Shown here piece by piece: positions 1,326-58,399 of a stretch of 64,000 nucleotides of DNA. The stretch spans positions 3,047,883-3,111,882 of the forward strand of contig OX387183.1 of NCBI GenBank assembly GCA_947561395.2, read 5' to 3'. Every line of letters starts with the position of its first letter. Within the stretch, counting starts at the first letter, position 1. This DNA is from Buxus sempervirens. Lineage: Eukaryota; Streptophyta; Magnoliopsida; Buxales; Buxaceae. The notes below the pieces were generated by a model. That model made no database searches, was not told the origin of the DNA, and worked only from the letters and a program-made list of their open reading frames with translations. Position numbers and translations under genes: made by a program.

Positions 1326-1574
1326 ATCTTTACTCAAATATTTTTTTTTTCTTCTCATTTCTCAACTCATCCAACATCAGAAAAGAAAAGAAAATCAGTA
1401 TTTTTCTTTTCTTTTCTCTTCTTTTCTTTTCCCTTTTAACCTTCTTTTCTTTTCTCCCTGTAGACACCCCAAATTGCACTACAAAATGACAAAATAATTG
1501 AAAATATGTAATTGGGATTTGAAACAAGTCAAAAAGTGTAAAATTTGGTCAAACATGCATTGATCGTATTTTAT

Positions 1575-1672
1575 CCACGGTCTAGTCGTGCCCGTATTTG
1601 ATATACGGTCATGCCGTGACCGCATTAACAATGCGGTCAAGGCATGACCGCATTATATATACGGTTATGGGT
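1575..1672. repeat. U3 palindrome array (CGGTCATGCCGTGACCG type)
   Basis: About 115-215 bases inside the left LTR end there is a run of imperfect palindromes built from ACGGTC, GGTCATGCCGTGACC and GCGGTCAAGGCATGACCGC. It lies upstream of the LTR TATA box, so it is in U3. The matching array in the inverted sister LTR is at 6470-6590. Confidence 0.75.
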
Positions 1673-2030
1673 TTTTTGAGCGAATTCGTCATTTTTCGAT
1701 TTCTGAGCCTTATCTGCACTCAAATCTCTCTCTGGGAAATTCGAATCCTCTTGTTTATCCATTCAAATCCTCTTGTTTATCCCCTGTGGTTTAATGGATT
1801 TGCATTATCTCTATTTTTGAAATTCAATTGGAAAATTCTGGGACCAACCATGCCCCTAGGTCTGCCTATAAATAGAGGGCCTCTCCGCAAGCAAATGGTC
1901 AAGAATCTGAACCTTGAAGAGCTTTAAGTGAAGAAGGGAACCCCTGCTTCTCTGCATTCTCAATCCAGGTAAGTTTCTTTTCTCTTTTATTTTCTTTTTA
2001 ATTCCAGCAATATGTAATCTTCTCCATTTC

Positions 2031-2336
2031 TGTAGAATAAGACCTAGTTTATATTTTTATCCCCAAACCTGCCTCCAAGTACCTCAAGACTCCTCTCTAT
2101 CCGTAAAACGTGAAGAGAGAGCTAGGGGAAAGGGGAACAGGTGAATCCTTAGAATAAAACCCTATAGTTTGTTTTTTCCTTTCTTTTTTTTTTTTTTTTT
2201 TTTGTAGAATAAGGCCATTGATTGTGTTTGTATCCCCAAACCTATCTCAAAGTACCTCAAGACTCCTCTCTAGCCATAAAACGTGAAGAGAGAGCTGGGG
2301 GAAAAGAGAATAGGTGGATCCGTAGGACAGGCCCCT
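2031..2336 (+). repeat. Internal tandem duplication in the LTR transcribed leader
   Basis: Two diverged copies (about 2031-2175 and 2203-2336) share TGTAGAATAAG, ATCCCCAAACCT, AGTACCTCAAGACTCCTCTC and AAAACGTGAAGAGAGAGCT. They lie downstream of the LTR TATA box and of a possible splice donor, CCAGGTAAGTTT, near 1968. The sister LTR at 4864-6676 has the same pair (5803-5905 and 5935-6080, inverted), so the duplication predates the split of the two insertions. Confidence 0.75.
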
Positions 2337-3599
2337 ATGTGCTGTAATCTGCAATATGTGGTTGCTTTTACAATTATGTTAATGTTTTAATGGTTTTATT
2401 CTAAATCTGGTGGAATCCTATGGATCCATGTTGTTTATAGCATGAGATCCTCTTTTTCACACCATTGCACTCACATCACTGTTTTCTTAATTTTTGTGAT
2501 TTTAGGCAAAGATTCTGGATCTATCATGATCTATATGGTAGATCTAAAATCATAAGCCTTAAAGTAACCTCTAGGATTTCATAAGGTGTTTTTCTCAGTT
2601 ATTTTAACCTTGGAGAGAGGATCCTATGGTCCAAACTCTCCCTTTTTGATGTTTTTCATCAATCTGGGTGTATCTGGTTGAGATCTCTCAACTAATGAGA
2701 GATCTGGTCCAGATCTGTACCCTAAACAATTCAAGTCTTTTCCTTCAAGGTTTTGTTTAAATAACCTTAATTTTTATCCTGGATTTTCAAGAGTTCATTG
2801 ATTTAACTTAAAGTTGGTTTATTCAAGTTTTGACTTTTGAGTCACTTTCTTTGATGATTATTTTCAATCTTGAAGCTGTAGAGATGGCACATTCATATGA
2901 AGGATCTAAAATTAATTGGGTCATTCATATAGAAGAAGCCATATATGTTTTTATTACTTTTTCTTTACTTTTGATTTGATTTTCTTTAGCGAGCCTTTGT
3001 CTAGCATGAACAATACCTGGCAACCACCTTGTATGGATGAATAGGGGTGCCTAACACCTTATCCTATTCATAACCTAATCCCCTTACCCATCTCTAGTTG
3101 TTTTTGTTTTGTATTTTAAAATAGAGTTATTTTTACCCTAATTTCTGTTTTTATTTGATTTGATATTTTGGTGTCCATTCACACCTAAACAGAATGGTGG
3201 CGACTCCTTCTTTTTAAATGAATCCCGTGTGATGGTAGGAAGTCATTAAATTGATTTTCCATGTCTCACACTCCCCAAATCCAAGGTTCCAAACACAGCC
3301 TTAAGAAAAAAACAAGTTGAAGAAGAGACAAGGTGAAGAAAAGACAAGTTGAAGAAGAAGAGACTCGGTTGGTATATGTAGAGTCAACTTTTACCAGCGG
3401 TAGTTTCCCTACAGCCCCTAAAAGTCGAATTAAATTTGAAAAATCGCGCGCTTTACTTTTAGTGGCGGTAAATTACTGCCCCTAAAGGCCGAATTAGATT
3501 TGAAAATCGAACTTTACTTTTAGCGGCGGTAGTTTACCGCCCCTAAAATTCAAGTCAAAATTCAATCCATTAGAAGCGTGGGAAATTTCCTGCTTTTGC

Positions 3600-4000
3600 T
3601 GTTACCGGCGGTAGGTTACCGCCCCTAAAAGTCCTTTTCGTTTTTTAAGAAATGGCCTTTTAGGGGTGGTAACGAGCTTACCGACCCTAAAAGTCCTTTT
3701 CGTTTTTTAAGAAATTCTCTTTTAGGGGTGGTAATGAGCTTACCGCCCCCTAAAAGTCCTTTTCGTTTTTAAGAAATGCCCTTTTAGGAGCGGTAATCAG
3801 CTTACCGCCCCTAAAAGTCCTTTCCGTTTTTAAGAAATGCCCTTTTAGGAGCAGTAATCAGCTTACCGCCCCTAAAAGTCCTTTTCATTTTTTAAGAAAT
3901 GCCCTTTTAGGGGCGGTAACAAGCTTACGACCCCTAAAAGTCCTTTTCGTTTTTTAAGAAATGCCCTTTTAGGGGTAATAATGTTACCGCCGCTAAAAGT
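3600..4000. repeat. Roughly 62-bp tandem repeats at the CACTA right end
   Basis: At least six diverged units share the order GGGGCGGTAA, AGCTTACCGCCCCTAAAAG, TCCTTTTCGTTTTTAAGAAA and TGCCCTTTTAG. Each unit presents the subterminal motif in both orientations. Confidence 0.85.
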
Positions 4001-4863
4001 ATTATTACCGACAGCATCTTACCGCTGGAAACAAGTTTTTATTTGGCGAGAGCTTCCCGTCAACTTTTTACCGACAGTAGGCATCTTACCGCCAATAAAA
4101 CTTAATATAGTGGCGGTAACTACCGCCACTAAAGGCTATTTCGCGCTCAAAAAACTCGCGTCATAGGTTTTTCGCTCGAAAAAATTTATATATTAATTTT
4201 TAGGCGCGGAAAGTGCCTTTACAGCCGGTAATAGTGCTTTTAGCGGCAGAATTTGCTTACCGCCGCTAAAAGCCCATCGCTAATTCCCCTCGTTTTTGTA
4301 GTGACAAAGCTTGGTAAACAGGAAAAGTTACCAGATAGTGCAACAAGATGAGTGATGTTGTCAAGGCCAACATTTGAGAATTTTGTTTTGAGCTGATCTA
4401 GGGTCTCAAAGGGAGATGGCATATTGTTACTGGTTCTAGAGAAGCTTGCAACCCAACCATCCCATCTTCTTAATGGGACAGCCCATGATGGACTTCCTGC
4501 GTGCAAACATGAGAATAAACTTATGGTTAAGTAGTGATATAGTTATAGGGCGTAAAAATAATTGAAAAATCCATCATAACGGCAGCAGACCTTGCCTTCT
4601 TTTTGTTAAAATCGTTTAACAGAAGTTATTAACAAGTACATGCAATAAAATGACCATAACTTGGTGTAAGTCCTGCTAAAGCAAGTCGCAAGTGGTTGAA
4701 ATGGCAAAAGACTCAACTGTGGAGATTCAAGCAAAAGAAAACAAGAAAAATAAAAGGGAGAAGTGTTACATTTTGCCCCTTAAGATTTCATACAATCCCA
4801 CTTTCTGGCCCGTTAAGGTTTTTGAAATATCAATTTACTACCTTTAAGTTTGTTGTGTGTAAC

Positions 4864-6676
4864 TGTGAGACATGGAAAAATCAATTTAATGACTTCCTAA
4901 TCATCACACGGGATTCATTAAAAACAAAGAGTCACCACCATTCTGTTTAGGTGTGAATGGACACCAAAATCTCAAAAAAGCACAAAAAGGCAAATTTAGG
5001 GTAAAAATAACCCTATTAAAAAAACAACCAGAGAGGGTAAGGGGATTAGGTTATGAATAGGGGAAGGTGTTAGGCACCCCTATTCATCCACACAAGGTGG
5101 TTGCCAGGTATTGTTCATGTTTTTCAAAGGAAAAAAGGGCTTGCTACAAAAATCATAAAAAATACAAAAATGTATGGTTTTTTCATACGAATAGCATGAT
5201 TGATCCAGAACTTTCAAATATGATCATACCATTCCTAGGGTTTCATGATTAAAATAAAATTGAGATAAAATCAAATAAAACCAAAATAAAGTGAAAACTT
5301 AAAAAATCTGGCTTCAAGTTAAATTCTAGAAATCTAGAAAAATATGATTTTTATGAAATATTGCAGAATTGAACCTGAATAGTCCAGGATATAGATATAG
5401 CCCAAATTTCACATTAAATCAAGAAATCAAAATCAAAAATACCCACGTTGATGAAGAACATCAAAAAGGGAGAACTTAGACCGTAGGGTCTTCTCTCAAA
5501 AGTGAAAAAGGACTCAAAAACCACATCATGAAACCGTAGAAATTACTTTCAGGCTTCTGAATCCAGATTTATCATATAGATCATGATAGATCCAGGATCT
5601 TAGCCTAAAATCACAAAAATCACGAAAACAGTGTTGTAGGTGCAAAAGTGGTGAAAATCTCAATTTTAGGAGAAAAAGAGGATTTCATGCTATAAACATC
5701 ATAGATTCATAAGATTAATCCAGATTCAAAATAAAATCATTAAAACATGATCAGGATATCAAAAGCAGCCATATCTCACAAATTAGAGCATATGGGGGTC
5801 TACCCTACGGATCCACCTGTTCTCTTTTCCCCTAGCTCTCTCTTCACGTTTTACGGCTAGAAAGGATTCTTGAGGTACTTGGAGATAGGTTTGGTTACAC
5901 AAACACAATTAAAGGCCTTATTCTATAAAAAAAGAGAAAAACAAAATATGGGGTTCTATTCTAGGGATCCACCTGTTTCTCTTTCCCTAGCTCTCTCTTC
6001 ACGTTTTACGGCTAGAGAGACTCTTAAGGTACTTAGAGACAAGTTTAGGAATACAGAATAAAAGAAGGCCTTATTCTACAGCAATGGAGAAGAATAGATT
6101 AATTCTAGAATTAAAAACAAAAAATAAAAGTAAATAAAAGGGAAAAGGGACTTACCTGGATTGAGCAAGCAGAGCAGCAGGGATTCCTCTCTTCACTTGG
6201 AGCTCCTTAGACTTCAAATTTTTGTGGCCCCTTGCTTTAGAATCTGCCCTCTATTTATAGGCAAACCCAGGGGTATGGTTGGTCCAAAGAGATATACCAT
6301 GATCCTCAAGATTGAATTGAAAATAGGGATAATGCCTATCCATTTAACCACAAGATAAACAAGAGGATTCGAATGGATAAACAAGAAAATTTGAATCTCC
6401 TAGAGAGATATTTGGGTGCAGATAAGGCTCAGAAATCAAAAAGGATAAATTCGCCCAAAAAACCCCTTGCCCATATATATATTACGGTCGCTCCCTACCC
6501 ATAATATTAATATGGGCACGCCATGCCCGTATATCAACTGCGGGCATGACCAGACTGTAAACAAAATATGGGCATGACCAGTTTGGCCAGATTTTACACT
6601 TTGTAGGCCTGTTTCAAATCCCAATTAATATTTTCAATTATTTTCTTATTTTGTAGTGCAATTTGGGGTGTCTACA
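4864..6676 (-). mobile_element. Solo LTR, 1.8-kb subfamily
   Basis: On the plus strand it begins TGTGAGACATGG and ends GGGGTGTCTACA, and is flanked by a perfect GTAAC TSD (4859-4863 and 6677-6681). Its TATA box is in the inverted CTATTTATAGGC near 6250. Length and sequence match the copy at 1459-3270. There is no internal retrotransposon sequence. Confidence 0.92.
6470..6590. repeat. U3 palindrome array (GGGCATGACC type)
   Basis: Repeats of ATGGGCACGCCATGCCC, CGGGCATGACC and ATGGGCATGACC lie about 90-205 bases inside the U3 end of the solo LTR. The position corresponds to 1575-1672 in the sister LTR, but the words have changed from CGGTCATG to GGGCATG. Confidence 0.7.
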
Positions 6677-6758
6677 GTAACAGTTTCTCCTTCTAGGGAT
6701 TGACCAATGAGATGACAAGAGAAAAAACACATATTTACAACTTTGCACCTTATATCCT

Positions 6759-9171
6759 TGTGAGACATGGATTCGTCATCTCTGATGACTTCCGATATCG
6801 TCACGAGGGAATCGGTAAAATGTTAAGAGTCGCCACCATCCATTTTAGGGTGTGAATGGACACCGAAGGGTTCATAGACGCCAAATAGAGCCAAAGTAGC
6901 TCTAATATAAGGAAAAAATCCAAAGATTAGGTACGGGGAATTATTTATGAGCGGGGGAAGGTGTTAGGCACCCCCACTCATCCGTCTAAGACGGTTACCA
7001 CATGCTTGCTTATGCTTTAAATCATTTGTTAGTAAAATGAACTAAGAGGTGCTTAACAAGCACAATGTGTGTGACCCTTCCACATGAGAAATCTAATGAA
7101 CTTAGGCTCTCTTCGTGGATCCATCACTTCTAAAACTTCATGAGTGAAGTGAAATCCAAGTAAAAATGAAGAAAATCGAGCTAAGGCCAATCTGGAGAAA
7201 TTAGGTCAAAAGAGCTTGAAAGCTTTAATAAACCATAACTCATTCAACTTAAATCCAAATCAAATGAAACCAAAGCCATTTGAAAACTGATATATAGTAG
7301 AGTATACAGTAAAAATTTCAACTCAATTTGATTCAAAATGAAAAAGAAATCCATATCTGAAATCTACTGTTATAACTCAGAAAAAACGTTAAGTAGGCAT
7401 TTTCAAAGCTCTATTCGTGGAGTTTGGCTCAATAAAAATCCATGAAAATTGGTATGGAGGAAGTGTGTAATGTCATCTTTCCAAAGAAAAAAATCTCACA
7501 CCAATTTCTATCCGGATGTGACTTGTGTGCTCTCTTGAACAGGCCTAAAAGACCACAGATGAGCTCTGGACTATGCCAGCGAGCACCTCTGAGTCAATTG
7601 AACACCCAAGGCACAAAACAGATTGAAATCCATTGAAACCAGTTGGAAATGAAAATAGACTTCTCAAAGAAAACTCAGAAACTGGAATCTCATGAAACGG
7701 ATTAAAACTGAGCAAATAGTGCACCATCAAAGCGGCAAGTTCAGCAATCTGGGCTGAACTGTCTTACAAACTTTGAAGAGATGGTGTCAAAAATTGGCTA
7801 CATGGAAGTGGACGAAAATTTCCAGATATTAAGTAGACACATCCATCTATCACATGTCTTTGGAATCACTCAAAAATTCATCCGGAGGATGAAGTTATAA
7901 GCATTCCAAGACAGGCCACAAATCTGCCCTGTTTTGAAGTTTTTGAAGAGGAAACATGGAAACCAGTGCATGTGTGCATGTGGATTCGACCAAAACCTCA
8001 AAAATCCACAAAATACTTTCTCATGAAGTTCTAAAAACTCTTTTTAAGGCCGATGATCTCAGATTTTCCGTATTGAACAGGGAAATCCAAGATCTAGCCT
8101 ATTCTTGCAAAAAAACAGTGAAAAGTGGGTGTGAAGATGTGGAAAATCACATTCCTATGAGAAGGTTGGAATCCATGGCTATTGAGAGCATGGATTCACA
8201 TCTTCTCCAAATACAAAATAAATCAGAGAAGCATTCAAGGGTTCAAAATAACCATATAGCATGCTTTTCATCATTTGAGGGTTCTAAACCTAGAGGATCC
8301 ATTCCACCTTCCTTTTCCCCAGGCTCTCTCTTCACGTTTTACGGCTAGAGAGGATTCCCAGGTACTTTAGAAGGGGTTTGGGGCTACAAATAACACCAAG
8401 GCCTTACACTACAGAAAGGTAGAAGATGAGAGATTGCTCGAACTAAAAAAGGAAGCAATAACTCAAATGGGCTTTACCTTAGTAGCTTGAACAGTTGAGT
8501 AGACAATCCAGCAGAGGTTCTCCTTCTTCTTGCAGAGCTTCTAAGCTTCAGATTGTCAGCCATTTGCAAGAGGAGGACCTCTCTATTTATAGGCCAAGCC
8601 AAGGGTAGAAGAGTCCCAAGGGTAGGCCAAAAAGGCCTTCAAGATTATTCCAATTCTCCTCCAAGGCTTGAATTGGAGTAATTCAGCAAGTTTCGGAGGG
8701 TGAAATAGGGATTTCAAGTCCCCTAGAGAGAGGTAATATGCGTAAATAATGCTCAGAGATCGAGCCATTTCGCAAATCCCCGAAACAGCCAAAACCGTAT
8801 ACTCAGTGCGGTTTCTACACAACTATCTCTCAAAGTGCGGTTTTTTACAAATTTAACCAAACCGTATATACAGGACTGTTCAATTCAGTTATGCTTTAAT
8901 TGATTGCTGTCCACGCGGCTCAACGGCCGAAGCTTCGCGAAGCCACGTGGCCGCCAGTGCAACAAGCATGGACCTGAACCGTGCTGTGTGTACGGTTGCA
9001 ACCGTGCATACAGAGCGGTTGAGATCAAAATTATAAAAACCGTATACACAGTACGGTTGGCACTGATTCAGAAAGTTTTTGAATGTTTGACACATGTCAA
9101 GGCTCAAATAAGACTTTTGAAGCTCTTCTTAGGTATTCTCTTATATTGAGGTGCAATTTGGGGTGTCTACA
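6759..9171 (-). mobile_element. Solo LTR, 2.4-kb subfamily
   Basis: Termini are TGTGAGACATGG and GGGGTGTCTACA, with a perfect 5-bp TSD, ATCCT (6754-6758 and 9172-9176). A TATA box is in CTCTATTTATAGGCCAAG near 8583. Its closest relatives are the copies at 26399-29275 and 53005-58190, which share long blocks. It shares with all subfamilies the module GGGGAAGGTGTTAGGCACCC followed by TCATCC (about 6955-6990) and the TTCACGTTTTACGGCTAGAG leader motif (about 8332). There is no gag-pol; open frames inside are not convincing. Confidence 0.92.
8785..9060. repeat. U3 palindrome array (ACCGTAT..ATACGGT type)
   Basis: Dispersed palindromic words include ACCGTATACTCAGTGCGGTT, TGTGTACGGTTGCAACCGTG and ACCGTATACACAGTACGGTT, spread over about 270 bases of U3 and separated by a GC-rich stretch around 8900-8960. 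Confidence 0.75.
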
Positions 9172-9392: not shown

Positions 9393-10149
<757 letters not shown>

Positions 10150-11121: not shown

Positions 11122-11131
11122 GTTTTTCTTG

Positions 11132-14840: not shown

Positions 14841-16645
<1,805 letters not shown>

Positions 16646-26393: not shown

Positions 26394-26845
26394 AGAAGTG
26401 TAGACACCCCAAAATTGCACGATTTTTTATAAGTCTTGAAGGAGAGAAATATTTTATTAGAATTTTAAATTCTTAGCTTTGGGTTTGAGATCCTTAAACC
26501 ATTTGAATGCAAAGCCGCAAAGGAAAAGGCCCGAATTCAATCTTTTATGCAAAGTCAAACTTTTTCGGGTTGAATTTTGTTAACTTTTGACCCCAGAAAA
26601 TGAAATATTTTTTAAAGCAAGATTTCAAGATAATTTTTCCCGATAATCAGGTTTTTAGCAATGTTATTGCATAAATGAATTTTTTGAGATTTTAAATCTT
26701 GATAAATACCTTTTTATCAACATGTTGAATCTTTTTACCGGACCTAAAAAACCGAAATTTAGCCTGGAATTGGAAAGTTTACTATTTATTAACTTGGAAT
26801 TTGGGTCTGGAAATATTTTTAATGGATTCAAATTGAGGGGTGTTT

Positions 26846-26930
26846 GTTTATTTACATGTAATATCTTAAGTAAATGGAGATTAAAAAATACGAGGATATT
26901 TACTTAAACGATATTACATGTAAATAAGCC
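26846..26930. repeat. Long hairpin in LTR U3
   Basis: Arms of about 30 bases, TTATTTACATGTAATATC then TTAAGTAAATG, pair with the complement at 26899-26930 around a loop of about 25 bases. The same hairpin with the same loop is conserved in the second copy at 57649-57731. Confidence 0.85.
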
Positions 26931-26967
26931 TAGCCTGTGCAGTTAAGGCTCAAAACCAACCAAAAAT

Positions 26968-27245
26968 GTGCTGATCGCAGTATATGTGCGGTTTTGGTTA
27001 ATTTGGTTTGATCCGCCATGTGTGTGCGGTTTCGACCGCGCACACAGTGCGGTATGTGTTCATGCCTTTTGCGTAACCTGCCATGTGGCTTCTAGAAGCT
27101 TAGGCCGTTAGACCACGTCGGCAACAATCATTTAAAGCATAACTGAATTTGAACCGCCCTGTATGTGCGGTTGAAGTGAATTTGCATGAAAACTGCATAT
27201 AGAGTGACGGTTTTGTGGAAACCGCATTGAGTATGTGGTTTTGCT
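26968..27245. repeat. U3 palindrome array (GTGCGGTTT/ACCGCAC type)
   Basis: Repeats such as TATGTGCGGTTTTGG, TGTGTGCGGTTTCGACCGCG and TATGTGCGGTTGAAGTG lie between the hairpin and the LTR TATA box. They correspond to 8785-9060 and 55025-55325. Confidence 0.75.
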
Positions 27246-29275
27246 TGTTTCGTGAATTTACGAAAAGACTCGATCTCTGAGCTTTATTTAAGCATATTAC
27301 CTCTCTCCCAGGGACTTGAACTCCCTATTTTACCCTCCGAAACTTCTAGATTTACAACAATTCAAGGCTTTAACTTGAATTGGAACAATCTAGAGGGATT
27401 TTTAGGCATACCCTTGGGACTTTAATGCCCTTGGTTGTGCCTATAAATAGAGGGGTACTCCTCTTGCAAATGGCTGATAATTTGAAGCTTGGAAGCTCTG
27501 CAAGAAGAGGGAAAACTCTGCTGGATTGCTACCTCAATTGTTCAAGCTACCAAAGGTAAAGCTTTAGTTCAGTTTTCAGCTTCTTTACATTTCAACTCCC
27601 AACTTCTACCTTTCTGTAGTGTAAGGCCACTTTGTGTCTGTTTGTAGCCCCAAACCTCTTCTAAAGTACCTGAGAATTTGCTTTAGCCGTAAAACATGAA
27701 GAGAGAGCCTTGAGAAAAAGAAGGTGGAATGGATCCTTTAGGCTTAGAACCTACATATGATGAAGAGCATGCTATTTGGTTATTTTGAGCCTATGGTTGC
27801 TTTCTCTGATATGTTGTGTATTTGTCTCTGGAGAAAATATACGAATCCGTGCTCTCAATAGCAATGGATTCCAACCTTCTCCTAGAAATTTGATTTCCAT
27901 CACCACCAAACACACTTTTCACTGTTTTTTGCAAGGATAAGCTAAATCTTGGATTTTCCATGTTTAATATGGGAAATCTAAGATCATTGGCTTTAAAATG
28001 AATTTTAGAACTTCATAAGGCTATTTTTCATGGTTTCCAATTGTTTTGGTCGAATCCACTTGCACACATGCATTGATTTTGGCTTTTTATTCAAAACAGG
28101 GCAGCATCTGAGGCCTGTCTTGGAATGCTTATAATTTTATCCTCCGGATGAATTTTTGAGTGATTCTAAAAACATGTGATAGATGGGAAAGCCTAATTTA
28201 TATCTGGAATTTTTCATTCATTTTTATGGAGCCAATTTTTGACACCATCTGCTCAAAGTCTGCAAGTCAGTTCAGTCCAGATTGCTAAACTTGCCGCTTT
28301 GATTGTGCACCATTTGCTCAATTTTAATCCGTTTTGAGTGATTTTAGTCTCTGTGTTTTCCTTGTGGAGTCTATTTTCCATTCCAACTGGTTTCAACAGA
28401 TTTTGATCTGATTTGTGGCTTGTGTGCTTGATTGACTCAGAGTGGCTCTGTAACAGAGTTCTGGGTTAATCTGTGATCCTCTAGGCATGTTCAAGAGGAC
28501 ACACAAGTCACAAATTAATGGAGTTTGGTGTAAGACCTATTTCGTTTGAAAGATGGCACCATATACTTCATCCATGCAAGTTTTGGAGAATTTATATGGA
28601 GCCAAACTCCACGAATAGGGTTTCAAAAATGCTTACTCGCCGCTTTTCTCTGAGTAACAACAGCAGATTTTCGTAGTGTGTTACTCTCTTGTTTTAAACC
28701 GGAATGAGATGATTTTCTTACTAAATATTATATTTCATACCAGCTATCAAATGGCCTTAGTTTCATTTGATTTGGATTTAAATCAAGTGATTTATGGTTG
28801 ATCAAAGTCTTCAAGTTCTTATAACCTAATTTTTCCAGATTTATCCTAGCTTGATTTTTCTTCATTTTTACCTTGATTTTCGTTCACTCATAAAGTTATA
28901 AAAGTGGTATATCCATGAGGAGAGTCCAAATTCATTGGACTACTCATATGGAATAATCACACACATTTTGCTTACTTTTAAGTATCCTTTGTCTGTTTTT
29001 TGATTAGCAAGCAATCCTTAACATGAGCAAGCATGTGGCAACCATCTTAGACGGATGAGTGGGGGTGCCTAACATCTTCCCCTGCACATAACTAATTCCC
29101 CTTACCTGATCTCTGGATTTTTCCTTGTATTAGAGCTACTTTTGCTCTATTTGGCATTTATGATCCCTTTGGTTTCCATTCACACCTTAACTTGGATGGT
29201 GGCGACTCTTTATTTTTATCAATCCCCGCATGACGATATCGGAAGTCATCTTAGGTGACATTTCCATGTCTCACA

Positions 29276-31560: not shown

Positions 31561-31762
31561 GATTCAGATCATCTACGGTTGAGCTCGTAAATTGGTTCAA
31601 CCGTACCCAATAGGCAAGCAACACTTCCTTAAAAAGTAATTTTTATTTTTTCGTTTTCCAATACAGAGAGAAAGGAGAGATAGTTTTGCTTGCCTACTTG
31701 GCAAATTATTATTGAGTACAGTTGAACCAATTTACGGGATCAACCATAGATGATCTGAATCT
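31561..31762. mobile_element. 200-bp MITE abutting the Pack-MULE
   Basis: GATTCAGATCATCTACGGTT at the left pairs with AACCATAGATGATCTGAATC at the right, and the inner AAATTGGTTCAACCGTAC pairs with GTACAGTTGAACCAATTTAC. ATATTATTG precedes it and CTATTATTG follows it (8 of 9 bases), suggesting a 9-bp TSD. Confidence 0.7.
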
Positions 31763-31771
31763 CTATTATTG

Positions 31772-33122
31772 GGATGGGATCCTCTAAGGTCGAACTCGGA
31801 ACTTGCTATAACCCGTAACCAATTATCTGATGGCACATCAGCTAATTTGTACTATTTGCGACATCATCACGAAAGGCAAAATGAAACGGCGTTAAATAGT
31901 TTGCGCCTCGGCTGTCGGGCCCTCTTCTCGACTGCGCAAAACCACTTCTTCTTCCCCTTCCCACTACAAAACCTCTCTCTCTCTTTCAAGCAGCAAACGT
32001 TCGTCACAATCATCCAAGGTCTACTAAAAGTTCTTGCTAGCATCGATACCAACTTTAAGGATGGTGACCTTGCGGAACTCTACATGTTCAAGTGGACAAC
32101 CCTGCTCATCCCACCCACCACCATCCTCGTAATCAATTTGGTGGGAGTGGTTGCTGGTGTCTCATATGCTATTAACAGTGGGTATCAGTCATCCTCTTCT
32201 TGGGAAGCTTTTCTTTGCATTATGGGTGATGGTCATAATCAATTAGGTGGGAGTGGTTGATGGTGTCTCATATGCTATTAACAGTGGGTATCAGTCATCC
32301 TCTTTTTGGGAAGCTTTTCTTTGCATTATGGGTGATGGTCCAGTTCTATCCCTTCCTCAAAGGTCTGATGGGATGCGAGAACCAAACACCCACCATTGTG
32401 GTCGTATGGTCTATTCTCCTTGCATCTATCTTCTACTTGCTATGGGTTCGATTGATCCCTTCACTACTCGGGTCACTGGAATCAACTACTAAAGGGAAAA
32501 TCAAATATGAAAGGACATAAAACTCTGAAGTTACATTTTGGAGATCCTTCCTTTCAAACCAACCTGAATGTGGAGGCTTTTGATTTTTGCCATGTTTGTT
32601 ATTTACCCATTTGTTTGTGGTATTATCATAATGACGGTTTGTATAGATACGATCAATCGAAATCACCTTTTCTTGTTGTAAGTTATTGTTTAATTTATTC
32701 AACAAAACACTCTTCCATTCAATGTGAACTATACAAGATATTTGTATGATCTTTGTTGTTTGCAACCACCTCATCCCGAATAACTTGCTCTTCGACGATA
32801 GCTCGACATGATCACCGTCACCGTCAAGCCTTCGTACAGGACCATGTTCAGTAGTAGCTGCACAAAACCATTCATGGAATAAAGAACATCTGCCTGAGAG
32901 AGAGAGGTTTCGTATAAGGATAGGACGCTTTGCCGGGAATAAAAAGTGGTTTTGCGTAGTCGAGAAGAAGGCCCGACAGTCGAGGCGCAAACGATGTAAG
33001 GCTGTTTCGTTTTGCCTTTCATGATGACGTGACCATGGTAGTACTAATTAGCTGAGGTGGCGTCAGATAACTGGATACGGATTATAGAAAGTTCCGAGTT
33101 CGACCTTAGAAGATCCCATTCG
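31772..33122. mobile_element. Pack-MULE-like element with long terminal inverted repeats
   Basis: Terminal inverted repeats of about 200 bases: the left starts GGATGGGATCCTCTAAGGTC and the reverse complement of the right starts CGAATGGGATCTTCTAAGGT. Both continue through TCGAACTCGG, a CCTCGGCTGTCGGGCC-like stretch and GCAAAACCACTT. Flanking CTATTATTG (31763-31771) and CTATTATTT (33123-33131) are a near-perfect 9-bp TSD. Long TIRs with a 9-bp TSD and a host gene fragment fit a Pack-MULE. The cargo is a cellulose synthase fragment; bases 32750-32900 may be a second fragment of unknown origin. Confidence 0.87.
32012..32490 (+). pseudogene. Cellulose synthase (CesA) C-terminal fragment captured by a MULE
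   Basis: Translation gives [14 protein letters not shown], then [31 protein letters not shown] and, in another frame, [35 protein letters not shown] and [10 protein letters not shown]. This is the transmembrane C-terminal end of plant CesA in the right order. A segment of about 105 bases (32133-32237) is duplicated directly in 32238-32342. A frameshift after GYQS is present in both units, and a second lies near LLWVR. The catalytic glycosyltransferase core is absent, so this cannot be a working enzyme. Confidence 0.92.
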
Positions 33123-33457: not shown

Positions 33458-35152
<1,695 letters not shown>

Positions 35153-43488: not shown

Positions 43489-46123
43489 CTAAATTATCCC
43501 AAAATCTATTATCATGACTGTCTTCATCCCCATCAGACTTTCATCAACAATCCTCATAGGTCGTTGCAACTTGGTTTCAACACCAGGGAAGTATCGTGAG
43601 CAAAACGTGAGGCATTCTTCTGCTAAATATCCCTGGGCGATTGACGCTTCTGGATGTGCTCTATTGCGTACATATGATTTGAGGCTGTACAAAAACCTAA
43701 TATGGAAATATTTGGGAAAATTATAATCCATTAAAACACATAAATGAATTACTATTAATGCAAAGATGACACATACCTCTCGATAGGGTACATCCATCTA
43801 TAATGTACAGGTCCACCAAGTATCACCTCTGTTGCCAAATGAATGGGCAAGTGCACCATCACATCAAAAAATGCTGGTGGAAAAATTCTCTCCATATGAC
43901 AAAGTGTGACTGCAATTTTTTTCTGTAATTGTAACAAATCTTCCTCCTTGCACACTTTTGAACATACTTCACTAAAGAAATTGCTTACCTCTATCAACAC
44001 CGAACTAACACCTTTAGGCAATGCTCTCCTTATAGCAAGTGGAAGAAATTGCTGCATAATCACATGGCAATCATGGCTCTTCAATCCTGCTAGCTTACGC
44101 TCTTTCTGATCAAAACATCTTGCTATATTAGACGAATAACCATCAGGAACCTTTAAGCTTCTCATCACTTTACAAAATAGGTTTTTCTCGTGCTTGGACA
44201 TTGTGTAGCATGCAGGTGGGAGTATAAATTTTCCACTACCACTAACATTGACAGCATGCAATGGTTGTCTCAACCCCATCCATTCTAAATCCTTGCGAGC
44301 ATTTAAGGAATCCTTTGTTTTTTTATCAATGTTCAATAAAGTTCCAATCACATTATCACAAAAAAATTTTTCAATACGCATAACATCTAAGTTGTGCCTC
44401 AAAAGATTATGCTTCCAATATGGTAACTCAAAGAATATACTCCTCTTCTTCCAATTGTATGGCGAAGGATCTGTTATTTGTGATTTTAATCTTTTCCTTC
44501 CAAATACAAAGTTTATTCCTTCCAACTGTTCAAGCACTTCTACACCAGACATCATTATGGGAGGAGATCTCACCTCTACAGTGCCATCAAACCAATTCTT
44601 ATTTGTACGAAACTTGTGATCAAAAGGCAAGAACCGACGATGACCCATATAGCAAAACTTCCTACCATATTTTAGGTATTGGCTGCAAGTATCCTTATGG
44701 CAGGAAGGGCATGCAAGTCTACCTTTTGTGCTCCATCCTGACAAATCTGCATAACCTGGAAAATCATTGATGGTCCACAATAATGCTGCTCGCATCTGAA
44801 ATGTCTCTTTCCTAGAAGCATCATATGTTTCCACCCCAACTTCCCATAACTCTTTTAACTCTTGAATTAAAGGTTGCATGAACAAATCAATGTTGTTACC
44901 TGGTGCTTTGGGTCCTGGGATGAGTAAAGACAATATCATGTTTGACTGCTTCATACACACCCAAGGAGGCAAATTGTAAGGAATGATTATGACAGGCCAT
45001 GTACTGTGAGTACTAGCCCTATTTCCAAAGGGATTGAACCCATCACTTGCTAGCCCAAGCCTCACATTGCGAGGGTCTAAAGCAAAATCTGGGTTCTTGC
45101 AATCAAAGTCAATCCATGCTTTTGAATCAGCCGGATGCCTTAGAAAACCATCCTTTGTTCTTTGCTCATCATGCCATCTCATGTCTAAAGCTATCTTTGA
45201 TGACATGAATAATCTTTGGAGCCTTGACTTTAGTGGAAAATACCGTAGAACCTTAGCAGGTGTGGGTTTTTTACTTCCTTTTGAATGCATGCCTTTATTC
45301 TTCCATCTAGAAGTGCCACATTTTACACATGAATCAATAGTAGAAGACTCCTTCCAGTACAACATACAATCGTTAGGACATGCATCAATTTTCTCGTATT
45401 TGAGGCTCAACTCATCTATAAACTTTTTCACTTGATAAAAACTATCAGGCAACACTGATCCCTCAGGGAGAACTTCTCTTTGGAGTTCAAGTAACAAGGT
45501 GAACGATTTGTCACTCCAACCACCTAAGCACTTCAAATGGAATAATCGCAAAATATACGATAATTTGGTATGAGTTACACAACCTGGGTACAATTCTTGC
45601 TCGGCATCCCTCACAAATTTGGAAAATCTTTCAAAATCTTCACCTTGTGGTCTCCCTGATTCTAGCTCAGGCTCATCCATTCTATCATCCACATCAGAAT
45701 ATCCTAAAGCAGCCCGTAACATGTCACCCATCTCAGCCCTTTCCACGTGCACATTGCTATCACCTTCCATCACATTCTCAATGTTGGAATTTAATTGATT
45801 ACTAGACTCCCCTTGCTTGTACCATCTCATGTTACGATGGTCAAAACCATTACAAATCATATGATCCTCCATCGTAATTATATCTTGATAAAGTGCATTA
45901 TTGCACTTATGGCATGGACACCTCAACCTCCCCCTATTGGGTTTCTTGTGAGTAAATGCAAATATGACGAAATCCTTCACCAATTCCACATACTCAGGTG
46001 TAGTCCTTCAAATCAATCAAATTTTAAAATTATATCGATCATAATAGGACAATAATAGAAACACCTGAAATTAAGCATAATTTCTCGATCATACCTCTCC
46101 TCCTTTGTCCAATGCCTATCCAT
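43489..46123 (-). CDS. TNP2-like CACTA transposase, probably degenerate at the C terminus
   Basis: A short first exon (46123-46095, MDRHWTKEE) splices in frame to 46005-43776, then to 43696 onward via an ATTAG acceptor, restoring IERFLYSLKSYVRN. Domains in order: Transpos_assoc-like N terminus with CPCHKCNN; Transposase_21 core (residues about 250-600) including FFELPYWKHNLLRHNLDV; and DUF4218-like region (ACYTMSKHEKNLFC to GGPVHYRWMYPIER and HPEASIAQGYLAEECLTFCS). After MRIVDES the frame runs into non-family sequence and stops at 43489, while the +1 frame stays open to 43403 with an acidic tail, so a frameshift is likely. The DUF4216 region common in such proteins is not seen. The usual LDVMHVEKN motif reads LDVMRIEKF. 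Confidence 0.87.
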
Positions 46124-51290: not shown

Positions 51291-51579
51291 CTAAAAATTC
51301 CTATTTGCGGCTAACTTAGGAGAACGTCGCAACTAATAGTTTTTAACCTCTATACAGTGGCGAACAAAAAAATATGTCGTTATATATTATTTATTGTAAC
51401 ATTCTTTTCTGTTTGCCGCAAAATTAATGTCGCGAAAAGTTTAATTTTTTGTAGTGACGTATATATAAAGTTGTACATCTCTCTTTTGACTCTCTTTTGG
51501 ATGTAATTTTACCATTTCCAAAAAAAAAAAAAGAAAAAAATTATCTTTTTCTTCTAAAAAATAAATAAATAACTAATTA

Positions 51580-52660
51580 TGAGTGTGAGTCAAGTGGAAA
51601 CGAAATCGTCTAAAATTAATTCTGTAAGGTTTAATATTTTAGTTTGGCTTAATTCAGTGTCAAAAAGATAGTGTTTAAATGTGTTTAGAATGTTTAGGTT
51701 GAGTCCAAGAAGACATGGTTCAAACGGCGTCAAAATCGGAGTCATATTGAAGAAGTTATGCCCAACGTTTGATCAACGTTCTCTGTCCGTTCGAACGTTC
51801 AATTTCTGAAGAGCAACGTTTGCTGAACGTTTGCTGAGCGTTCGAACGTTCATGTTCTGCAGACAAACCTGAGACTAGCGTGAGATCAACGTTCTCTGTC
51901 CGTTCGAACGTTCAAGTTTTAAAGGCCAACGTTTGCTAAACGTTTGCTGAACGTTTGCTGAGCGTTCGAACGTTCAAACAGCAAAATTTCCGAAAAGTTA
52001 CGAAAAATTACATAACTTACTCGTTTCAATTCAGATTGACTTCAAACTTTTTGGGGAACCTTTAAATAGGATTAGGGACCTTATAAACCTAGGAGAGCTA
52101 CGTTTTAGAAGCCCTAAATATCCTTTTCTCTTCTGAAAACCCTTCTTCTAGGTTTTCATCTTTTGAGCCATAAAACCTTTCTTTTCTTCTTCCTTCCTCT
52201 ACCTTGGAGTTCCGGGTTGGGGAGATTGATCGTGGGAGTTCCTACGGATACCAGGCGAGTTCGTTTGGATGATCGTGTGAGAAGATCTTCAGAGTTCTGA
52301 AGTGTTGCTGTGGAGCAAATCTGAGGAGTTCCTCAGATACTTTCAAGTCTGTGAGTTGCAGAGTCTAGCATAGGGATGTTGAGTCGTCTGAACTACAGGT
52401 TGTAAGTCTTCTTTTCATATTGGATCTTTTAGGTGGCTCCTGCATAGCCCGGAAGGTTTTTCTCTAGTGAGGGTTCTCATAGAGTTTTCCCTTCGTCACC
52501 AAAATTGCTTGTGTTGTCTATTTACTTTATTTGCAATTTTGTGTGATTGGTTATTAATTGATCAAGACTTGTACATGCCTATTAATTAAGAACTTGTTTT
52601 TAATTAATAGAATTTTATTCCGCTGTGCTTCACCTATTCACCCCCCTCTAGATGTATTTA
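51580..52660 (+). mobile_element. LTR-like fragment with GTTCGAACGTTC palindromes
   Basis: Ends near TTCACCTATTCACCCCCCTC, a phrase typical of the 3' part of some plant LTRs or leaders, and has a CTTTTCTCTTC-rich, leader-like middle. Bases 51768-51978 hold two units of about 115 bases containing CGTTCTCTGTCCGTTCGAAC and AACGTTTGCTGAACGTTTGC. I could not fix the ends or a TSD, so class (Ty1/copia is likely) and borders are uncertain. Confidence 0.45.
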
Positions 52661-55024
52661 GAGTCAAAACCCTGTTTTTCAAATTCTTTATTGAATTGAT
52701 TTCTGCTATTGAATGGGATGCTTCCATGTGGAACATCCCATAATTATTGTTTTCTAAGGCATAGAAAATTTATAAAAAGTGAAAACACTAACTGTGATAT
52801 GTTACATGTGAAGAATTTCAGAAAATTTTATTCCAGTCAAGTGGCTCCAGCAATGTATTATTGAAAGTGGTTGACTGGCCCTTGTGAATGCTGCTAATGA
52901 AAAGATAAGAGTTTCTTTGGTGCATACACCATTAATGGTTGAACAAGGCTAACCCTCTGCTTCATGGTTTTCAACTAAACCACATATTGAGACAAGGTAA
53001 TTTTTGTGAGACATGGAAATGTCATCTAGGATGACTTCCGATATCGTCACGCGGGGATCGATAAATGTAAGAGTCGCCACCATCCATCTTAAGGTATGAA
53101 TGGACACCAAAGGGTTCATAGAAGCCAAATAGAGCTAAAATAGCTCTAAGATGAGGAAAAATCCAGAGATTGGGTAAGGGGAATTATTTATGAGCAGGGG
53201 AAGGTGTTAGGCACCCCCACTCATCCGTCTAAGACGGTTGTCACATGCTTGCTTATGCTAGAAATTGTTTGCTAAGGAAATGAACAAAAAGGGTGCTTGT
53301 AACAAGCACAATGTGTGTGATCATCCCACGTGAGAAGCCTAATGAGCTTAGACTCTCTTTGTGGATCCATCACCTCTAGAACTTCATGAGTGAAGAGAAA
53401 TCCAAGTATAAATGAAGAAACTCAAGCTAGGGCAAATCTGGAGAAATTAGATCAAAAGAGCTTGAAAGCTTCGATTAACCATAACTCATTCAATTTAAAT
53501 CCAAATTCAATGAAACCAAAGCCATTTGAAAACTGGTATATAGTAGAGTATATAGTAAAAATTTCAACTCAATCCGATTCAAAATAAGAGAGAAATCCAC
53601 ATCTAAAATTTGCTGTTATAACTTGGAAAAAGTGTTAAGTAGGCATTTTCAAAATCCTATTCGTGGAGTTTGGCTCAATAAAAATTCATGAAAATTGGTA
53701 TGAGGGAATTATGTAGTGTCATCTTTCCAAAGAAAAAAACCTCACACCAATCTCTATCCGGATGTGACTTGTGTGCCTTCTTGAACAGGCCTAGAAGACC
53801 ACAGATTAGCTCTGGACTATGCCAGCGAGCATCTCTGAGTCAATTGAGCACCCAAGACACAAAACAGATCAAAATCTGCTGAAACCAGTTGGAAATGAAA
53901 ATAGACTTCTCAAGGAAAACTCAGAAACTGGAATTACTCAAAACGGATTAAAATTGAGCAAATAGTGCACCATCAAAGCGGCAAGTTCAGCAATCTGGGC
54001 TGAACTGACTTACAAACTTTGAACAGATGGTATCAAAATTTGGCTACATAAAAGTGGACGAAATTTTCCAGATATGAGATAGGCACATCCATCTATCACA
54101 TGTCTTTGGAATCACTCAAAAATTCATCCGGAGGATGAAGTTATAAGCATTCCAAGACAAGCCACAGATCTGCCCTGTTTTGAATATTTTTGGATAAAAA
54201 GCCAAAATCAGTGCATGTGTGCAAGTGGATTCGACAAAAACAACTTAAAATCATGAAAAACAACTCATGAAGTCCTAAAAGTTCATTCTAAGGCCTCGGA
54301 TCTCAGATTTTCCATATTGAACATGGAAAGTCCAAGATCTAACCTATTTGATGAAGATAGTGAAAAGTGTGTGATGGTGTGGAAACCACATTTTTAGGAG
54401 AAGACAAAGATCAAATGCTATAAAGAGCATTGATCATAATGTTTTCTCCAGATCCCAAACACAATCAGCTTAGAAAAAAAAGCTCAAAATAATATCAATA
54501 TGTCATTCAAAATGGGTTCTATGCCTAGAGGATCCATTACATCTTCCTTTTCCCTAGGCTCTCTCTTCACGTTTTACGGCTAGAGAGGATTCCCAGGTAC
54601 TTTGGAAGAGGTTTGGGGCTTCAAAGAAACATCCAAGGCCTTATACTACAGAAAGGTAGAAGATGGGAGTTGGAAATGTAAATAGGAAGCAAGAAAACCA
54701 AATGGAGCTTTACCTTTAGTAGCTTGAATACTTGAGGCAGCAATCCAGCAGAGTTTTCCTTCTTCTTGCAGAGCTTCCAAGCTTCAAATTATCAGCCATT
54801 TGCAAGAGGAGGACCCCTCTATTTATAGGCCAAGCCAAGGGTAGAAGAGTCCCAAGGGTAGGCCAAAAAAGCCTTCTAGATTATTCCAATTCTCCTCCAA
54901 GGCTTGAATTGGAGTAATTCAGCAAGTTTCAGAGGGTGAAATAGGGAGTTCAAGTCCCTGAGAGAGAGGTAATATGCGTAAATAAGGCTCAGAGATCGAG
55001 TCATTTCGCAAATCCTCGAAACAG

Positions 55025-55325
55025 CCAAAACCGCATACTCAGTGCGGTTTCTACAGAACCGTCACTTATGTACGGTTTCTACAGAACCGTCACTTATGTA
55101 CGGTTTCTATGCAAATTCATCTCAACCGCACATACAGGGCGGTTCCAATTCAGTTACGCTCGCCATGATTGCTGTCGACGTGGCTCAACGGCCGAAGCTT
55201 CCGGAAGCCACGTGGCAGCTCACGCAACAAGCATGAACATCAACCGTGCTGTGTATGCGGTTGCAACCGTACATATAGGGCGGTTGGGACCAAATTCTTA
55301 AAAACCGCACATATACTACGGTCAG
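55025..55325. repeat. U3 palindrome array (ACCGTCACTTATGTACGGT type)
   Basis: Includes two tandem copies of AGAACCGTCACTTATGTACGG plus ACCGCACATACAGGGCGGTT, TGTATGCGGTTGCAACCGTA and AACCGCACATATACTACGGT. Same position as the arrays at 8785-9060 and 26968-27245. Confidence 0.8.
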
Positions 55326-55357
55326 CACCTTTTTGGTTGGTTTTGAGCCTTAGCTGT

Positions 55358-57633
55358 TGTGAGACATGGGAAAAAATCACCGGAGTGATCATCCCTCCGT
55401 CAACACACGGGCTCAACGCAAAAATTGGGAGAGTCGCCACCATTCATGATTTTGGGGTGAGAATGGACACCAAAGAGTTCAAAAGTAGGCAAAAATAGCC
55501 AAAAGACAAATTCTAGGGTAAAAATAACCCTACTTGAAAATCAAATCCAGAGATGGGTAAGGGGATTAGATTATGAACGGGGGAAGGTGTTAGGCACCCC
55601 CATTCATCCACACGAAGTGGTTGCCAAGTGTATGTTCATGCTAAAAAGAAAATAAGAAGCTTGCTAAAAATCATGAAAAAGCCTTGAAAAAGGAATAATG
55701 TATGATATTTTCACATGAAGATCTAAATGGATTTTAGATCCTCTCTTATGTCAATATCACCTCTGGAGTATTTCAAAAGATGGAAATCAAAGTAAAAGTG
55801 GCCAAAACCAAGTTGAGGCAAATCCGGGAATTTTGATAAAAAGTAAGGTCCTTTGTCTTGAAATCATTCAAATCCAATTTCAAATTGATTCAAACCAACT
55901 CTATTTGAAAGATTATGATAAATAAGGAACTCACGCAAAATCTCAAGTTAATCCGATAAAAATCCTAGGAGTTATGCTCCTTTGAAGTTGCTGCTAGGGA
56001 TTTTTAAAAGTGGTAAGTGGGCAACTTTGGAAAATTGTCTAGAAAAATCCACTACACAAAAGTCCACGAAATTTGGTGTGATTGAATTTTGTATGGCCAT
56101 CTTTCCATAGAAACTAGCCTCATACAAAAATCCCTTTGGATGTGCCTTGGGTGGTCTTCCGAACAGGCCCCGAAGATCACAGATTTACCCAGAAAAGTAC
56201 AAATGAACAGTTCTGAGTAAATCGGCTACCAATAATTCAAATGGAATCAAAAAATTATGAAACCAACTGGATTTGAAAATAGACTCATAAAGGAGTACTC
56301 AGAAACAAAAATCACTCGAATCGGACTTAAAACGAACACATGGCGGTCCGTCGAAGTGACAAGTTCTGTACTTGAACATGAACTGTCCACTAAACTTCCA
56401 CAGAGAGGTGTCAAAAATCTGCTAGATAGAAATTCATGAAATTTGGTCGACATAAACTAGACAGCCTCACCTTTCCCATGGTTCTGGAATCGCCCCAAAA
56501 TTCATCCGGATGAGGAAGTTATGGGCGTCCGCAGTAAGGGTACAGGTGCTGTCAAGCTAAGCCACTTTTGAAGAAATCCAAATCCGAAAATTGACAAAAA
56601 GTGTGTGATTCGTGTGAGATGAATCCAAAACCTTTGAAAAACATTTTAAAACACTCCAGAATTTGATTGAGGCCATTTATTTGAGTTTTATCACAATAAA
56701 TGCAATAAACCCCAAATATGAGCCTATCCCGCCAAAATAGTGATATGTATGTGCAAGTGTAAAAAACCAAACAAGATCAATACAACATGCATATAGATTC
56801 AACAAAATAGGTTCTAGCATAGCCTAGGGTCCCGTTCCATTATCGTTTCCCTCTGTTCTCTTTAAGATAATCAAGGGTACTTTGAATATGGAACGGTTTT
56901 CAATCATTCAAAAGCCTTACGCTACATGGGTTCTAGCACTAGGGTCAATCCCCAGTCTCGTTTCTCCTAGATCCGCCTTCACGTTTTACGGCTAGGGGAG
57001 TCTTGAGATACTTTGAGCCGGGGAAGGATTTCCACACATACAAACAAGGCTTTACACTACAGAAAGGTAGAAGAAGAGATCTAGATCTAGGAATGTAAAG
57101 ACAGAAAATAAAAAGAAAAGTTGAGGCTTACCTGAGTTCTGGAGGCGATTCCACAGCGGTTTTCTTCTTCTCTTGGAGTTCTTCTTTGCGAGAATTCAAA
57201 ACAAGAGTTGTGTGCCTTTGCTCAAGGAGGAGGCTCCTATTTATAGGCAAGGGCTAAGGTCATTGGTAGACACAACTTAATGTCTAGAACCCCTCCAACC
57301 TAAACCCTAAGGTTATTTCCGCGATTTCCCCTCATTTAATGAGGGACATGATGGTAAAAGTGAAAAGCTCTCGGAAAACCCTAATTTTGAGCAAACTTAA
57401 GGTATCCGGTATATCAGACCGGATAACAAAGGGCCTTAAGGTATCCGGTACATGGTACCGGATACGCTAAGGCTCACCTGTATCCGGTATGAGTATCCGG
57501 ATACGGGAAGGAGTACTTGTATCCGGATTGAGTATCCGGATACAGGTAAAAGTTTATTTTCTCCAAATTCTATGCTGGCTTTCCAGGAGATAATGATTTT
57601 TGATGATTGTTTGTGCAATTTGGGGTGTCTACA
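55358..57633 (-). mobile_element. Solo LTR, 2.3-kb subfamily, nested in another solo LTR
   Basis: Ends TGTGAGACATGGGAAAAAAT and TTTGGGGTGTCTACA. Flanks GCTGT (55353-55357) and GCTGC (57634-57638) are a 5-bp TSD with one C-to-T change; the host sequence in the copy at 26399-29275 supports the original junction. TATA box in CTATTTATAGGCAAGG near 57238. This subfamily has the shared TTCACGTTTTACGGCTAG leader motif (56980) and the GGGGAAGGTGTTAGGCACCC module (55580). The partial LTR at 1-87 is its closest match at the terminus. Confidence 0.9.
57402..57546. repeat. U3 palindrome array (GTATCCGG..CCGGATAC type)
   Basis: Five or six copies of GTATCCGG paired with CCGGATAC, for example TATCCGGTACATGGTACCGG and GTATCCGGATTGAGTATCCG, lie about 90-230 bases inside the U3 end. 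Position as in the other subfamilies; the word is unrelated. Confidence 0.85.
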
Positions 57634-57648
57634 GCTGCAAAGGCCAGG

Positions 57649-57755
57649 CTTATTTACATGTAATATCGTTTAAGTAAATGTCCTCGTATTTTTTAATCTC
57701 CATTTACTTAAGATATTACATGTAAATAAGCAAACACCCCCCCCCCCCCCCCCCC
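57649..57755. repeat. LTR hairpin plus a 19-base poly-C run
   Basis: The second copy of the hairpin described at 26846-26930, followed by a run of C at 57737-57755 where the other copy has only GGGG. Run length may be affected by sequencing. Confidence 0.85.
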
Positions 57756-58399
57756 ATTTGAATCCATTAAAAATATTTCCAGACCCAAATTCCAAATGAA
57801 TAAAAAGTCAACTTTCTAGTTCCAGGCTAAATTCCGGTTTTTCAGGTCCGGTAAAAAAATTCAACATGTTGATACAAAGGTATTTATCAAGATTAAAAAT
57901 CTCAAAAAATTCATTTATGCAATAACATTGCTAAAAACCTAATTACCGGGAAAAATTATCTTCAAATCTTGCTTTAAAAAATATTTCATTTTCTGGGGTC
58001 AAAAGTCAACAAAATTCAACCCGAAAAAGTTTGACTTTGCATAAAAGATTGAATTCGGGCCTTTTCCTTTACGGCTTTGGATTCAAATGGGTTAAGGATC
58101 TCAAACCCAATGCTAAGAATTGAAATTCCCAATAAAATATTTCTCTCCTTCAAGACTTATCAAAAATCGTGCAATTTTTTGGTGTCTACAATTTTGTTGT
58201 TGATTCTCTGGCTAGAAATGCCCTATCTACGAATACTAATCAGGTTTTCTACAATTCCAGATCACAGCCATTGGAGAGTTGTGGCTATCTGAAAAGAGAC
58301 AAGGGAGGCTTGTTTCATCTCAGAGTCCTTCACTATGAATCCTACACGTTGTATCCATTCTTCTGTAGCAAGACACAGGTTGGGGTCTTGCCATAACCC

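Follow-up and report, generated by a model that had tools for sequence, protein, structure and literature searches.

The stretch of Buxus sempervirens DNA analysed here (64,000 nucleotides of contig OX387183.1, positions 3,047,883 to 3,111,882; hereafter the window, part of a 676.5 Mb genome to which the genome-wide counts below refer) holds six complete long terminal repeats (LTRs) of one retrotransposon family, A to F, and all six carry an array of short palindromes in U3, upstream of the TATA box, at the places given by an original prediction made from the sequence alone. The words of the palindromes differ between subfamilies, as had been proposed, but they are not independent of one another, as all of them hold the triplets CCG and CGG separated by 11 bases (CCG-N11-CGG, the exact dyad; relaxed searches tolerated at most one mismatch). 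Such dyads also precede open reading frames (ORFs) for PMD-superfamily proteins in related copies elsewhere. We give about even weight to the reading that the arrays are bound by a dimeric factor which co-evolves with the element. The likeliest such factor is the element's own PMD-superfamily protein, and the circuit would be VANC-like or autoregulatory.

Dyad arrays and their common gap

The six LTRs fall into three subfamilies: A (1459..3270, plus strand) and B (4864..6676, minus) form the first (A/B); C (6759..9171, minus), D (26399..29275, plus) and E the second (C/D/E); and F (55358..57633, minus) the third. LTR E is interrupted by the nested F, which separates its main part (53005..55357, minus) from its 5' part (57634..58190, minus). 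Because exact 5-base target site duplications flank each of A (CTCCC), B (GTAAC), C (ATCCT) and D (AGAAG), these four are solo LTRs; the duplication around F (GCAGC/ACAGC) agrees in four of five bases.

The array of LTR A (1561..1667, plus) consists of eight 9-base half-sites close to TG[AC]CCG[TC]AT, which alternate in orientation in a 14-base register (LTR positions 103, 117, 131, 145, 159, 173, 187 and 201, the second being the most divergent) and include three exact dyads. That of LTR B (6468..6574, minus) is degenerate, with one exact dyad and one carrying a single mismatch. The C/D/E word is AACCG-N11-CGGTT: LTR C (8792..9059, minus) has four exact dyads and one with a mismatch, LTR D (26972..27241, plus) four exact U3 dyads, at least one of them off-word, and two with one mismatch, and LTR E (55028..55324, minus) seven exact dyads, mostly of this word. 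In LTR F (57402..57543, minus) the word TATCCG-N11-CGGATA is repeated four times, each time as an exact dyad, with a period of 39 bases. The first array dyad with at most one mismatch was found at LTR position 106 in A, 134 in B, 116 in C and 95 in F, and at 577 in D and 589 in E, where the array starts 460-475 bases further in than in C. These two LTRs contain an added 5' module, which lengthens U3 by about 500 bases (window 26399-26940 in D and 57634-58190 in E), has a strong inverted repeat of its own and holds further one-mismatch dyads at LTR position 340 (D) and 340-341 (E). Some A/B-type LTRs elsewhere also have the module (e.g. those at loci L014, L024 and L038), so subfamilies with different words share it. 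LTR A shows, in addition, a duplicated leader segment with copies 85% alike (LTR positions 569-694 and 741-867; window 2027-2152 and 2199-2325), near which GTAAGT and CTGTAG-like borders resemble those of a possible 5' leader intron.

An excess over shuffled sequence was found for each of the six arrays, by inverted 7-mers or, in D, by the dyad count. When inverted 7-mers were counted in 160-base segments and compared with 200 dinucleotide shuffles, five arrays, those of all LTRs but D, exceeded every shuffle. In LTR D the passing segments covered, wholly or in part, another inverted repeat, which belongs to the added 5' module, and two later places, and the array itself did not stand out; since the inverted 7-mer test misses it, its support comes from the dyad count (four observed, equalled in 0 of 1000 shuffles). 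The palindrome test was also passed elsewhere within LTRs A, B, D and F. The dyad count was applied to nine LTRs, and in eight of them shuffled U3 contained 0.014-0.082 dyads per U3; the ninth, at L024, had been cut too short for counting and showed four dyads once its TATA box was located. The single exact dyad of LTR B was matched by 14 of 1000 shuffles.

CCG-N11-CGG is common to the A/B, C/D/E and F LTRs and to an F-like LTR elsewhere (L031), and the neighbouring bases vary symmetrically. The L031 array has the word TATCCGAC...CGGATA, with the same place and 39-base period as in F and two of four sites exact. Within the window, exact dyads numbered 0, 4, 28, 1 and 2 for gaps of 9, 10, 11, 12 and 13 bases, respectively, and 25 of the 28 with the 11-base gap lay inside the six LTRs (two of these near LTR 3' ends). 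The genome was searched for two dyads spaced 10-30 bases apart, a pattern of which a four-dyad array may yield three matches; it occurred 60,695 times with the 11-base gap and 255 times with the 10-base gap, a 238-fold difference. The pattern read backward, which has no CpG, gave 2,854 matches (N11) and 4,974 (N10). As the true N10 count falls below that of its CpG-less control, the backward pattern cannot serve as a neutral baseline, and N11 is better judged against N10. Among the loci in hand, which had been chosen for their LTRs or ORFs, 219 dyads had the 11-base gap and every other gap from 0 to 30 bases accounted for 9-50. The shared gap rule eliminates the idea of freely evolving palindromes: an array resembling binding sites at a conserved position is supported, but its word is not free to change.

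Linkers between dyads, taken from the 54 of 73 plus-strand rows listed (all within the first 3.5 Mb of one contig), measured 11 bases in 25 cases, 22 in 21, 10 in four, 21 in two and other lengths in two, and as 11 or 22 bases dominate, they mostly differ by about one helical turn. The arms of the dyads also tend to pair. Among 78 distinct inner 11-mers, pairing was 0.782 for positions 1 and 11 (shuffled, 0.375) and 0.615 for positions 2 and 10 (0.397), and among 26 dyads the outer positions 1 and 2 gave 0.654 (0.366) and 0.923 (0.479); related copies are mixed in these counts, and neither relatedness nor word class was corrected for in the shuffling. Pairing above the shuffled value was not seen at the central inner positions or at outer position 3. 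Since pairing is confined to inner positions 1/11 and 2/10 and outer positions 1 and 2, a site resembles a pair of 7-base half-sites (NNCCGNN) around a free 7-base centre. The strict gap, the symmetric arms and linkers one turn apart together suggest a dimeric DNA-binding protein. Gal4-type fungal sites, CGG-N11-CCG, likewise consist of two triplets 11 bases apart and are read by a dimer; their triplets face the opposite way from those described here, and the likeness is one of resemblance only. Literature searches, including a text search with the LTR terminus whose listed matches were unrelated, showed no report of such dyads among the papers listed.

Most of the family members sampled elsewhere carry the array; its absence from most of them would have spoken against the original prediction. 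Thirty A/B-type LTRs were retrieved with a query that contained the array of LTR A, and hence are not a neutral sample; an exact U3 dyad was present in 25 of them and a dyad with at most one mismatch in 29, the sole miss (L026) being an artefact of an altered TATA box, as the array is visible in its sequence. Three of the 30 (L042, L045 and L048) have lost whole array units. The prediction of array turnover over a flat background failed in this set. Mean diversity was 0.225 in the half-sites, 0.250 in the spacers, 0.241 in the U3 just upstream and 0.157 outside the array, and it rose to 0.386 at LTR position 1294-1333. The array thus varies more than the LTR mean, yet another part of the LTR is the most variable, and the idea of the array as sole divergence hot spot was dropped.

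Arrays outside the LTR and the ORFs that follow them

The family fits the Tat clade of Ty3/gypsy elements, Ogre type, to judge from its LTR ends (TG...CA), 5-base duplications, the order RNase H, extra RNase H, integrase, and its PMD ORFs. In L034 the ORFs run RT_RNaseH, RVT_3, integrase, with an LTR of the family inserted next to the RT frame; these pol ORFs, seen adjacent to it, presumably belong to the same element as the array-bearing LTR. An extra ORF with PMD was found in L049, where LTR, primer site and DUF7745/PMD ORF follow in order, and also in L033, L034 and L050. Five copies, picked for this site, and L049 have after the 5' LTR a TGGCGACTCC-like primer-binding site, which we take to match tRNA-Arg. 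For Ogre and Retand, published passages place the extra RNase H after RNase H and ahead of integrase, and they report PMD in the extra ORFs of 57% of Ogre elements (PMC6317226).

The interior of four of the five copies was obtained, and three of them (L029, L031 and L033) have a second array about 1.25 kb after the 5' LTR. When the T/C variant of the half-site was counted by hand, the internal array had T in 8/8 half-sites in L029 and C in 7/8 in L031 and 6/6 in L033; in the matching LTRs of these elements, three in all, with which the internal variant agrees, T was found in 7/8, and C in 4/8 and 5/8, respectively. LTR and internal arrays were of one word class in six sets (L004/L029, L005/L031, L017/L033, L033 with L034, L031/L032, and L050). 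Tandem repeats with open frames lie between internal array and gag (L029:1585-2272, L031:1704-2226 and L033:1831-2443). The possibility that A/B elements have a DUF7745 ORF downstream of the 5' internal array and ahead of gag was rejected, as tblastn gave no match in L029, L031, L033 or L035, and a PMD query found no match in the same interval of L029, L031 or L035.

The DUF7745 domain (PF24924), in ORFs that also match PMD (PF10536), gave 5,751 first-look candidates in the genome. All 118 that were scored were above the cut-off, many without stops, and 39 of these rows are of L049 type by the start of the match; DUF7745 and PMD were the Pfam matches above cut-off. Twenty loci of several classes, picked for variety and none of them of L049 type, all had N11 dyads 308-423 bases before the start of the DUF7745 domain, with two or more dyads in 18; altogether 57 dyads had the 11-base gap, and no other gap between 4 and 20 bases was represented by more than nine. 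The DUF7745 ORF of L050 is preceded by an AACCG array, which ends about 130 bases short of the start codon. L049 is arranged differently: a 5' LTR with a U3 array is followed by a second dyad array of mixed words, inside the LTR but downstream of the TATA box (L049:1692-1792), then by the primer-binding site and an open DUF7745/PMD frame of 498 codons. A family LTR about 4 kb or less upstream of three other DUF7745 ORFs (L091, L092 and L093) was also considered and rejected, as no terminus and just a 187-base match, in L093, was found.

The words in front of the 20 DUF7745 ORFs were of KCCCGTA type in 13 cases, AACCG type in six and AACCGAAA type in one. In a tree of these loci with L034, L049 and L050, rooted on L049, the seven AACCG sequences form one clade, the AACCGAAA sequence is sister to it and the 14 KCCCGTA sequences lie apart; mean DUF7745 identity was 0.919 within KCCCGTA, 0.933 within AACCG and 0.768 between these two classes. 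L091 and L092 have a further ORF, with PMD, upstream of DUF7745, and in L033/L034 and L032 the PMD ORF runs antisense to pol or gag frames nearby. Relative to the L033 copy, PMD ORF identity falls from 88% in L092 (KCCCGTA) to 65% in L091 (AACCG) and 43% in L032 (TATCCGAC), the pieces of L032 giving a weak PMD match in Pfam (E 0.07-0.09) and a strong tblastn match to L033. Gag is 73-82% identical between the A/B and TATCCGAC classes, and the gag of L030, which has no word class assigned, is 42-55% identical to the others. From a handful of local alignments, PMD thus appears to diverge more than gag between word classes. Searches for more distant relatives of the PMD ORF gave three weak matches among solved structures (E 0.18-0.32), and in viral contigs two stretches fitted a DUF7745 pattern, neither of which encodes a relative. 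PMD was not found in the window, either in the ten of its 14 long frames scanned or by tblastn.

Candidate readers of the dyads

We propose that each array would act as a row of twofold-symmetric sites on double-stranded DNA, read by a dimeric protein that is most likely the product of the element's PMD ORF, its DUF7745 ORF or both. By analogy with VANC and VANDAL, binding would keep the LTR promoter and the ORF promoter active, or free of silencing, in copies that share a word class. An ORF in sense just after the 5' LTR, as in the L049 class, could be served by the LTR array, whereas an antisense ORF near the 3' end would have its own, and a change of word between subfamilies would represent co-divergence of reader and site. 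The element's own PMD-family protein is the most economical candidate because in several classes the sites precede those ORFs (or, in L049, lie in the LTR before the ORF) and because the words follow the ORFs. We put forward more tentatively a specific form of this proposal, a private self-recognition system in which the LTR promoter and the promoters of the element's genes carry helically phased CCG-N11-CGG dyads that an element-encoded pair of PMD and DUF7745 proteins may bind, and in which new subfamilies may arise when reader and word change together.

Several observations weigh against an element-encoded reader. The L049 class has no array before its ORF in any of 11 loci (L049 and ten of its type fetched in addition), six of which show a lone dyad of poor symmetry about 560-590 bases ahead of the domain while five show none; this rules out an array before every DUF7745 ORF, and it is the LTR array just upstream that probably serves the ORF in L049. 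The L049 DUF7745 sequence has about 0.40 identity to all others and yet a KCCCGTA-like word, so that word and protein distance are not one-to-one. Upstream of the one AACCGAAA ORF, L093 has AACCGC/AACCGT-type dyads and no PMD match, and in the element L002/L035, whose LTR word is TGACCG, L035 lacks the array at the 1.25 kb site and has AACCG-type dyads 2.0-3.6 kb in. The comparison of PMD with gag rates uses sequences from neighbouring elements as well as local alignments, and LTR, arrays and ORF are linked, so their agreement stems partly from shared descent. CpG retention was much the same in the array (0.739) as elsewhere in the LTR (0.730), with no sign of protection. Finally, the PMD-linked DOWN motif of Arabidopsis, CATGCAGTTT, is unlike the dyads described here and is not CCG-N11-CGG, as given in passages of PMC9899485.

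The main rival is the suggestion, made originally, of a host factor: the arrays would be enhancers for a dimeric host transcription factor with CCG half-sites, and subfamilies would recruit different members of one host family. Their place upstream of the TATA box and the lack of an array before the ORF in the L049 class favour this, as does the turnover of U3 regulatory regions between subfamilies described for Tnt1 in passages of PMC1838419. On the other hand, arrays precede the element's own DUF7745 ORFs in all 20 loci of other classes, word class tracks ORF clade and PMD divergence, and no host factor with such a site was identified, a binding-site library not having been searched. A host factor is possible but somewhat doubtful; the arrays that precede the element's own PMD-family ORFs, and whose words track the ORF clade, make a reader encoded by the element the better candidate. 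The other alternatives fare less well. U3 is transcribed at the 3' end of genomic RNA, where the arms could pair, and the palindromes might act there as RNA hairpins; but G-U mismatches, which RNA would tolerate, are not favoured in A/B-type arms (37 against 72 A-C), linkers differ by about a helical turn and some arrays lie outside the LTR, ahead of ORFs, and we consider this reading extremely unlikely and have set it aside.

That the arrays are ordinary tandem repeats, functionless and kept alike by slippage and conversion, would agree with their regular 28- and 39-base periods, with the loss of whole units in three copies, and with a within-copy agreement of variants above the shuffled value (0.616 against 0.482 at half-site position 3 and 0.641 against 0.570 at position 7). 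Yet the gap rule outlasts change in the neighbouring bases and holds at separate sites of the element, both arms change together, and the 238-fold excess of the 11-base gap over the 10-base gap extends through the genome, which makes this explanation very improbable. It also seems unlikely, if a little less so, that the arrays are chiefly targets for silencing by the host, through RNA-directed DNA methylation or small RNA, with words that change to escape, although this is compatible with an element-encoded reader. Noncoding arrays of VANDAL elements are targeted by both anti-silencing and RNA-directed DNA methylation, according to passages of PMC10398659. Escape alone, however, predicts free change and not a shared dyad, and the array has lost CpG to much the same degree as the remainder of the LTR.

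Among known systems the closest is VANC/VANDAL of Arabidopsis, in which, as here, short tandem motifs lie in noncoding regions, and in which the motif and the encoded protein differ between related families, as described in passages of PMC10398659. In the present loci motif and element protein agree in part, in the DUF7745 tree and in the comparison of PMD with gag, with L049, L093 and L002/L035 as exceptions. VANDALs, however, are DNA transposons, and VANC binding and anti-silencing have been demonstrated by experiment, whereas the present family is an LTR retrotransposon with a candidate PMD-superfamily protein, whose binding we infer. Ogre/Tat elements share with the loci described here the PMD extra ORFs and the order of the extra RNase H, but the published passages (PMC6317226) mention no dyad arrays, whether within the LTR or ahead of the PMD ORF. 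In Tnt1, a Ty1/copia element of Solanaceae, U3 regulatory regions also differ between subfamilies; the passages of PMC1838419 describe neither a dyad rule shared across U3 types nor a linked element-encoded reader. The MAIN/MAIL1/PP7L proteins of Arabidopsis are host PMD proteins tied to gene control and transposable element silencing, and to a promoter motif, according to passages of PMC7156037 and PMC9899485, where contact between their complex and chromatin is called unknown; the function of PMD in plant retrotransposons is likewise called unknown in part of PMC9289625. If the proposal is correct, PMD proteins would gain a function, of which tens of thousands of paired dyads would be the footprint, and the predicted site for each word class makes the question directly assayable for binding. 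Sequence-specific self-recognition of the VANC-like kind would then reach beyond DNA transposons to retrotransposons, and the splitting of U3 into subfamilies would have a possible reason.

Other features of the window

Solo LTR A lies inside an element at window 278-4303 that we take, by its end sequences (CACTACAAAAA and TTTTTGTAGTG), to be a CACTA-like DNA transposon; the motifs TTACCGCC and GGCGGTAA are repeated near its ends, and a 62-base tandem repeat occupies 3616-4000. An open frame at 43755-46007 (minus) encodes tnp2 transposase, DUF4218 and transposase-associated domains. A cellulose synthase exon is located at 31754-32260 (plus), and three peroxidase exons, about 19-28 kb apart (14841-15332, 33458-33928 and 61247-61765, all minus), perhaps represent a gene cluster.

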